From positions 25,833,276-25,897,275 of the forward strand of contig NW_027467782.1 in NCBI RefSeq assembly GCF_004210375.1: a stretch of 64,000 bases of DNA, given 5' to 3'. The first letter of the stretch is position 1; every line of letters begins with the position of its first letter. Under the pieces are notes generated by a model. It was not told the DNA's origin, made no database searches, and worked only from the letters and a program-made list of their open reading frames with translations. Position numbers and translations under genes: made by a program. Positions 7,604 to 10,413 of the stretch are shown here, piece after piece. The DNA is from Tachypleus tridentatus (lineage: Eukaryota > Arthropoda > Merostomata > Xiphosura > Limulidae).

Positions 7604-8790
7604 CTGTAAAAGAAAAAATGTTCTCTCTTTAAATTCTGGAAAAATGCAGTTTCAGTGAAAGCATCATTCACACATTGTTTCTTTAAAGACAAAGGAAAAC
7701 CAAGAAGAATAATTAAAACTCATTACATAGTCAGTGTAATCCATTAAGACAACACAGTAACAAAAAAATTTGATGAAAGTGAAAAGATGTCCACTATATA
7801 ATTAGTTGTGAACAAAGATGAGAACAGTTATGTCTAATCAATCCCTAGTAAACTCTAACTTTTGAAAGTGTCTACAATTTTCAACTTAGAATTAAAATTT
7901 AGAAGAATTACTCTAAATTCCTAATGAATTTTTTCTGTAAATTTATGGACAACATATAGAAACATCTCCTTTGAAAAACTAATTTTTACAAATTAATTTC
8001 CAATACCATATATTTTTCTCTTATACTCCTAGCATTTCAACAGTAACAATCAAGTCTATCCTTTTCTACTTTCTGTACTAACTTCCCATGGAAAATTTTT
8101 CATTTCCTCTTATTCTTTGCGTTTAGTTTTAGTTTAAAACCTCCTTTATAGCTGAGTTAATAGTCTTAGAAAACAAGCAAGCTGCTACAGTATTTAAAAA
8201 TAAACCTCCCATTCCAAAAAGCACCCTTCCTCCTCTGAACTAGTTGATATAAGTCCAGTCAGTCTACTATCCTTACAGTTTACCTAAACCTAACATTTAA
8301 CCCTAGTGACCTACTTATAAGTTCATTTACACAGATTATTCTATCCATATATCTTGTCAATAAATCACCCACAAATTCCACATACTTCTCTGATCTTTTA
8401 ATTTCATTCTTTCCAACATTTCATGTGCAGAAGGCAAATTCTGAAATTTGTTTGTCAATAAAATAGGCTCATTACAACTAAATTCATTATTTTTTACTCT
8501 ATACTAATAGCACTCTTTCTACCTTCCTGAAAGTCACTGTCATCTGATATATCCCTTGCATATAAATAAATTATGCTCCCTCAGAATACTGCTTCCATTT
8601 CCCATGATCTACAATTCTTTTCATTGTCTCCAACTTATCCAATATAAAAATTCTACAAAAAAAATCGTACAGCTTCGTCAAAAGTTTTCTCAAGTACAAG
8701 TACGTAGCGGCCCGGCATGTCTATCTGCTCAAAATACTTCGCCTGTACTCTTGAGCGGCAAAATAGGATTTACCGAACTTTATAGCGTCT

Positions 8791-8905
8791 TGGGTGGTGA
8801 TGTCTAGCTGCCTTCCCTCTAGTCTTACACTGCTAAATTAGGGACGGCTAGCACAGATAGCCCTCGAGTAGCTTTGTGCGAAATTCCCAAACAAACAAAC
8901 AAACA
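8791..8905 (+). mobile_element. 5'-truncated tRNA-type SINE (family A) with 15-bp target duplication
   Basis: The 3' half of family A is present (GGTGGTGATGTCTAGCTGCC, CTAATTT-like body, GCGAAATTCCC tail, CAAA repeats). It is flanked by an exact 15-bp direct repeat, AACTTTATAGCGTCT, at 8776-8790 and 8906-8920. The tRNA head is missing, yet the target-site duplication is complete, so truncation happened during insertion, as expected for copies mobilised by LINE machinery. Confidence 0.9.
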
Positions 8906-9249
8906 AACTTTATAGCGTCTTTATGGATGAAAGAACACACACTAGAAAGGATAAAAGAGAATGTTAAGTGACGGGGAGATTCGAACTCTTTGTTAACACT
9001 CCTACGAAAAGTGGGGCCTAATAGGCCCCAGAGCAACTTGAAAGGTTATTAATATTAGGATAATAATTTTGTATTTAAATGAAATTGCCATTAACTGACC
9101 CTATCCCTTTATATTTTAAAGAGCAATAATATTTTGACTTTTCAGACATTTGCGAAATAATATTTAAAAAAAAATTAAAACATCCACTAAGGGTATTCAG
9201 ATCAAAAAACATAAAAATGACTTTATTTATTTCCTGAATAATTCTAGAA

Positions 9250-9396
9250 CAGGCCTGGGCAACCGAAAAAAGCAAATTATAGTAAAAATATATTAATTTT
9301 ACAACTTCTTTTCAAAAGATGGATATTTAGGATAATAACTCTACTCCAACAATAATTTTAGACGGTCCTGATTATTGCCTAGTTTGCCCACGCCTG
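9250..9396. mobile_element. hAT-type MITE, 147 bp, with 8-bp target duplication
   Basis: Terminal inverted repeats CAGGCCTGGGCAAC and GTTTGCCCACGCCTG bound a 147-bp AT-rich, non-coding core. The 8-bp duplication TTCTAGAA flanks it at 9242-9249 and 9397-9404. The 8-bp duplication and CAG..GGGCAAC ends are typical of hAT elements. The target, TTCTAGAA, is itself a heat-shock-element-like palindrome at the edge of the array described next. Confidence 0.9.
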
Positions 9397-9490
9397 TTCT
9401 AGAACATTCTAGAAACTTTACAGAAGTATTTAGAATATTCTAGAAGCTTCAAGAATATTCTAGAAGAATCCACAAATCCAATATATATAG
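9397..9490 (+). promoter_or_regulatory. Heat-shock-element array plus TATA box
   Basis: At 9433-9465 seven alternating GAA/TTC units occur in exact 5-bp register: GAA 9433, TTC 9438, GAA 9443, TTC 9448, GAA 9453, TTC 9458, GAA 9463. This is the canonical nGAAnnTTCn array bound by heat-shock factor trimers. Further imperfect units lie at 9397-9426. A TATATATA tract follows at about 9479-9489, and the first ATG of the piggyBac-like frame is at 9519. A start site 25-30 bp past TATA would leave only a very short leader. The array is seen directly. That it drives the transposase frame is inference. Confidence 0.8.
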
Positions 9491-9518
9491 GAGCTGAAAT
9501 CTTCAAACTGTGTCAAAA

Positions 9519-9893
9519 ATGATATCTCTTGATGAAGTTGTACATTTACTGACAAAACCATCCGACGATGAAAGTGAACATGATAATGTCGAAGACTACT
9601 CTGAAAGTTGTGAGGATGATCCTTCTGAAGCCGAAAATGATGAACAAATCGCGCCGTACCCTTCTGAAAGTGAAGAAAGTAATCAAGAAGATCTTACTAC
9701 GATGCCAGTGAACGAACTTTTGTCCAAAGATAAGAATTTTAGTTATTCAACAACACCTTCAAGGATCAACAGGAGAACCGCAGCTCTCAATATATTCAAT
9801 GGGAACCCAGGCATTACAAGGCAAGCTGCTCCAAGAGTCTCTACACCATTCGAAACATTCAAAATTTTCATTTCTGATAATACTGTAACCTGA
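9519..9893 (+). pseudogene. piggyBac-like transposase, N-terminal remnant
   Basis: The frame starts MISLDEVVHLL, runs through an Asp/Glu/Ser-rich segment (DDESEHDNVEDYSESCEDD), then TTPSRINRR and GNPGITRQA, and ends PFETFKIFISDN. This order (LDEVLxLL, an acidic linker, 'GPTR', 'PLEAFxLFF') is the N-terminus of piggyBac-family transposases. Only about 124 residues remain of the usual 500-600; the catalytic domain is absent downstream. The frame can be extended three codons upstream without an ATG; I use ATG 9519. It lies 50 bp downstream of a perfect heat-shock array. Confidence 0.8.
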
Positions 9894-10190: not shown

Positions 10191-10201
10191 CTCATGGATG
10201 C

Positions 10202-10413
10202 GTCGCGCCAAATATGTTCGCCCTCCCAGCCGTGGGGATGTTATAATGTGACGGTCAATTCCACTATTCGTTGGTAAAAGAGCAGCCCAACAGTTGGCGG
10301 TGGGTGGTGATCACTGGCTGCCTTTCCTCTAGTCTTACACTGCTAAATTAGGGACGGCTAGCGCAGATAGCCCTTGAGTAGCTTTGCGCGAAATTCAAAA
10401 ACAAACAAACAAA
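10202..10413 (+). mobile_element. SINE (family A), head-truncated, with 12-bp target duplication
   Basis: The body runs from GCCAAATATGTTCGCCCTCC through ATAATGTGACGGTCAATTCC, GTCTTACACTGC and AGATAGCCCTTGAGTAGC to a CAAA-repeat tail. Exact 12-bp direct repeats CCTCATGGATGC lie at 10190-10201 and 10414-10425, marking both insertion edges. Confidence 0.95.

Follow-up and report, generated by a model that had tools for sequence, protein, structure and literature searches.

A row of heat-shock elements (HSEs) stands directly before the transposase gene of a piggyBac transposon, here called E1, in the horseshoe crab Tachypleus tridentatus. We hold with good confidence that this array is the upstream activator of the gene, i.e. 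part of a promoter owned by the element and driven by heat-shock factor (HSF). This is the best reading because of the order HSE, TATA box and ATG, of the position of the array on the promoter side only, and of its recurrence in other transposons. Since a row of HSF sites directly precedes the transposase gene, heat stress probably switches E1 on, as far as DNA sequence can tell.

The heat-shock array of the window

The window is the whole stretch of 64,000 nucleotides that was analysed. The features that surround the array are as follows.

8993-8996, unstranded: TTAA target-site duplication on the piggyBac 5' side (TTAA also found at this junction in 18 of 20 other fetched copies)
8997-9882, + strand: 3'-truncated copy of piggyBac element E1, with terminus CACTCCTACGAAAA; homology to the full-length 2.24-kb copies stops at 9882
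9242-9249, unstranded: left 8-bp target duplication of a MITE, TTCTAGAA, itself an HSE dimer
9250-9396, + strand: hAT-like MITE, CAGGCCTGGGCAA ... TTGCCCACGCCTG, with a 21-nt inverted repeat, 95% complementary, target duplication included
9397-9414, + strand: HSE block 1, TTC GAA TTC GAA, including the right MITE target duplication (9397-9404)
9433-9465, + strand: HSE block 2, GAATATTCTAGAAGCTTCAAGAATATTCTAGAA, in which GAA and TTC alternate over seven units, each perfect and in exact 5-bp register
9482-9489, + strand: putative TATA box TATATATA, between array and ATG
9519-9893, + strand: truncated transposase reading frame (ATG at 9519, homology ending at 9882, stop at 9891-9893)

The two blocks are offset by 31 bp, and the ATG lies 54 bp downstream of the array end. 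The earlier note on this DNA had described the seven phased units, a TATA-type TATATATA after them and a start within 55 bp, all of which the sequence bears out; it had missed the four-unit block and the MITE just upstream. Taking at least three alternating GAA/TTC units in 5-bp register as the mark of an HSF promoter, the window copy has seven plus four. The proposal of a piggyBac-like start was also right: the N-terminus encoded in the window gave by itself no Pfam match over the cut-off, but longer genomic copies of E1 encode a transposase with the DDE_Tnp_1_7 domain (PF13843, E 1.4e-57).

That chance would hardly build such an array, as had been supposed, is clear from two comparisons. With up to three mismatches, the seven-unit pattern has six overlapping matches in the 64-kb window, every one at 9433-9465, whereas 100 dinucleotide shuffles of the window give a mean of 0.02 and a largest value of 2, none reaching six. 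Over the 2.17 Gb of genome searched, the perfect pattern has 97 + 86 matches, against 0 + 0 for a control pattern read backward. The shuffles and the empty control together rule out a chance origin.

The match to the other E1 copies stops at 9882, so that the window copy, judged from its sequence, is one that retains the promoter without most of the transposase. Its array, of the 58-bp kind, falls 10 bp short of the form most frequent in the family (68 bp). About 1 kb of 5' flank is common to this copy and to those at L013, L023 and L027 (window 7808-9882); the four therefore probably go back to a single insertion that was duplicated along with the DNA around it. A SINE-like stretch at 8791-8903 breaks up the duplicated flank; it belongs with a second stretch, at 10200-10409, to one dispersed repeat with AAACAAACAAAC tails.

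The MITE has inverted CAGG...CCTG termini, which we take to be hAT-like, and the 8-bp TTCTAGAA on both sides. As this duplication itself consists of two HSE units, the MITE landed inside the heat-shock array. Genome-wide, no MITE-free E1 was found within three mismatches of the 35-base empty-site sequence; the insertion thus predates the copies visible to this pattern. Eight MITE matches away from the listed arrays were fetched (drawn from 40 scored of 256 candidates), and each of them lies in a copy of E1, in some cases one whose array is short.

Ownership of the array in E1 and its relative E2

Defined from copies elsewhere in the genome, E1 is a 2.24-kb piggyBac element with TTAA target sites. 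TTAA borders both ends in 15 of the 20 fetched copies; of the other five, two have TCAA on the 3' side and three are truncated at one end or at both. The terminal inverted repeats are CACTCCTACGAAAA (5') and TTCGTAGGAGTG (3'); palindromes of the GGGGCCTAATAGGCCCC type, candidate transposase-binding motifs, lie subterminally at the 5' end (window about 9013-9033). The transposase is homologous to PDB 6x67 (E 5.2e-56), which we take to be the Trichoplusia ni piggyBac transposase: LTVDEQL, ITTDNFF and AGVDT align with LTIDEQL, ITCDNWF and GGVDT, motifs which presumably hold the catalytic Asp residues. We know of no HSE array upstream of the transposase gene of T. ni piggyBac.

Fourteen full-length copies differ on average by 1.2% from their majority sequence. 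Whether the array and the TATA box recur in other copies of the element, a check that the earlier note had proposed, was answered in several ways. The 40 places scored, out of 263 candidates, all span the array region, in a sample biased towards array-bearing copies because the query itself contained the array. Both flanks of the array are found exact at 157 genomic places, and at none for the backward control, with a pattern that admitted 45-75 bp only and therefore missed longer or shorter arrays. Among the 100 of these places that were listed, the array stretch measures 68 bp in 70, 48 bp in 21, 58 bp in five and another length in four. With single imperfect units tolerated inside a run, all 21 examined copies, that of the window included, have a run containing four perfect units or more, and 20 of the 21 one containing at least six. 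Two points speak against ownership: in the older copy L081 (93% identical) the array is degraded and TATATATA is missing, and several copies have shorter arrays. On these sequence comparisons the array and the TATA box are parts of E1. Since copies are free to evolve once inserted, the likeness of array bases among E1 copies is given no weight here as a sign of selection.

From 116 scored piggyBac loci, ten more were fetched: the older E1 copy L081, a member of a second family, E2 (L075, in L082), and eight loci of lower protein identity (25-30%), which a tree divides into three groups. E2 (C3:76824922) has 38-44% protein identity with E1, is flanked by TTAA and has CCCT-type ends with 11 of 16 bases matched; GGGGGTCAAAAATGACCCCC-type subterminal palindromes, candidate transposase-binding motifs, occur at both its ends. 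The MITE is absent from it. Its array is made up of two blocks, one of four units and the other of seven-of-eight, at the 31-bp offset seen in E1; TATATAAA and then the ATG follow, so that the order HSE, TATA box, ATG is the same in both families. Each of the three longer E2 copies seen has five or more perfect units in one run. By contrast, the 2 kb fetched for the eight array-free loci contain no three-unit run, and the tree sets the array-bearing piggyBacs on one side of a branch (100/100) against these eight; it has 11 rows, near-copies among them, and carries long-branch warnings.

Outside the array, the leader DNAs of E1 and E2 have no similarity. Aligned locally, they score 64, a value that falls to 20 once the array is removed; the best of 300 shuffles gives 32. 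This score beats the shuffles, yet random artificial two-block HSE arrays attain 64 in 0.9% of 2000 pairs and the E1 leader scores up to 55 with 22 unrelated CACTA-like leaders; common descent of the two arrays is for this reason favoured, not proved, and their similarity could be convergence.

The variation in length, mostly by 10-bp steps in E1, could also suggest a functionless array, neutrally expanded from TTCTAGAA through 10-bp slippage. We consider this very unlikely, since slippage accounts for a change of length, not for the position: the arrays of E1 and E2 have the same place and layout though the rest of the leader is dissimilar, they recur in the CACTA-like element described below, and the backward control remains at zero.

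Alternatively, the array might act in cis on transposition, as subterminal repeats bound by the transposase and merely resembling HSEs. It lies 425-503 bp from the 5' terminus in E1 and 294-362 bp in E2, a range possible for such repeats, which DNA transposons can have at these distances. Moreover, 41 of 93 E2 protein matches are of a deleted kind with only the last ~165 residues present, and the six derivatives of this kind that were fetched (L102-L107) all retain their first 317-348 bp and with them part of the array, inside which the deletion starts; the TATA box and gene start are gone in all six. On the other hand, runs of at least three units are confined to the promoter side and absent from the 3' end in both families; the GGGGGTCAAAAATGACCCCC-type palindromes, by contrast, occupy both ends of E2. 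The units also obey the 5-bp GAA/TTC rule and adjoin a TATA box and an ATG, and an unrelated transposon of CACTA-like type has the same layout. We thus regard a transposition signal as unlikely, and retain the promoter as the function of the array.

Arrays in a CACTA-like family and in host hsp70 genes

Of the 183 seven-unit matches, 100 were listed, all on contigs C1-C8: 54 contain the array string of E1; the other 46 lack it and come from 32 loci. With L031 as reference, 25 of these 32 loci were compared, and the other 24 all match L031; of the remaining seven, two were fetched and stand outside the comparison, and five are unfetched. The non-E1 arrays at the 25 compared loci belong to one abundant transposon, which we call CACTA-like from its termini only.

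L031, L039-L045, L047-L054, L083-L099: CACTA-like array-bearing loci

Arrays in this family reach 26 units, 21 of them perfect (L088). In the less rearranged copies the array is followed by TATATATA and then by a start codon (MASRSCK...); L085, L087, L096 and L099 are among those rearranged just 3' of the array. Three CACTA-like protein fragments gave no Pfam match over the cut-off. The ends are inverted and read CACTATGTAACA or close to it; in L054 the 5' end is CACCATGTAACA and the inverted 3' end CACTATGTAACA. The 48-base terminus beginning with CACTATGTAACA matches 4013 places with up to three mismatches. Of 100 listed termini 16 were sampled: behind three of them lie runs containing at least four perfect units, behind one (L108) runs of three units only, and 12 have no array, ten of these twelve joining a different internal sequence to the same terminus. 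TTA or TAA, a possible 3-bp target duplication, precedes 14 of the 16 sampled 5' termini, as counted on the 5' side.

The earlier note had left open whether E1 carried its heat-shock promoter or captured it. The order HSE then TATA box is indeed also that of the host: a sampled hsp70 promoter has HSEs followed by TATAAATA, and capture of a host hsp promoter could be imagined on this ground. However, two hsp70 genes of the tandem cluster on C8 have upstream one run of four and one of three units, and two further hsp70-family genes one run of three, i.e. four units per run at most in the four sampled regions (L068-L071; small hsp genes lie outside this sample). Aligned to the E1 and E2 leaders, the upstream regions L068, L070 and L071 score 22-30, within the shuffle maximum of 32; for these three, of the four sampled, capture of an hsp70 promoter is rejected, no likeness being found beyond the HSE units. 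No hsp70 match was found at the listed seven-unit arrays on C1-C8. We find capture highly improbable: "carried" fits better than "captured", because the layout recurs in a second piggyBac family and the sampled hsp70-family promoters are alike only in their HSE units.

The host genome has matches to the HSF DNA-binding domain at five places. It also has a Coagulin family match of 100 bits, a family found in none of 14 control genomes, and the last 48 residues matched are identical to those of coagulogen 1aoc, a Tachypleus tridentatus protein; this points to a horseshoe crab belonging or close to Tachypleus. In eight tandem hsp70 copies (C8:132821672-133793067) the match is in two pieces, in different frames, breaking at about residue 185 with a 10-base overlap, unlike the copy at C8:132865747, which is a single open frame; the split may be a shared frameshift or an assembly error.

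A probable heat-driven transposase and its precedents

Upon heat or proteotoxic stress, HSF trimers would bind both HSE blocks of E1, and the bound HSF would activate the TATA box ~15 bp downstream; the ensuing burst of transposase could then produce a burst of transposition.

HSE promoters on transposons are already known, from Helitrons and from ONSEN. Garrigues et al. 2019 (PMC6927752) report that Helitrons of Caenorhabditis contain HSEs occupied by HSF-1, and that their Rep-Helicase mRNA rises on heat shock in an HSF-1-dependent manner. Helitron1_CE and others of these Helitrons resemble E1 as DNA transposons with many HSEs in the transposase promoter; heat induction was demonstrated for them, while for E1 it would follow from the promoter. 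They differ by type: Helitron1_CE is a rolling-circle Helitron, and E1 a TTAA-targeting DDE piggyBac. ONSEN, a copia element of Arabidopsis transcribed under thermal stress (as mentioned in PMC6927752), is a plant LTR retrotransposon, unlike E1. Also unlike E1, TCN3 and TCN12 of Cryptococcus are LTR elements, with two and one putative HSEs respectively in their promoters and more mobilisation at 37 C, as stated in PMC12810828. In the literature searched, whose coverage mostly excludes subscription journals, we found no report of an HSE promoter on a piggyBac element.

A broader reading goes beyond E1, and we see the balance for and against it as even. At least two unrelated groups of horseshoe-crab cut-and-paste transposons—the piggyBac clade, and the CACTA-like one with its thousands of termini—would run their genes from heat-shock promoters having more HSE units than the sampled hsp70 genes. 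The piggyBac promoter would be ancestral and selectively kept, transposition would be coupled to thermal stress, and the genome would have been seeded with mobile HSF sites.

The arrangement makes testable the old idea that heat stress acts on transposons directly, mobilising them via their own HSF promoter and not through a failure of silencing alone. One promoter design shared by two piggyBac families and a CACTA-like family in one animal would mean that this strategy evolves repeatedly, or that selection keeps it. Helitrons were reported to rewire the heat-shock response in Caenorhabditis (PMC6927752); in the horseshoe crab, the arrays constitute a natural supply of mobile HSF binding sites, which could likewise rewire the heat-shock response.
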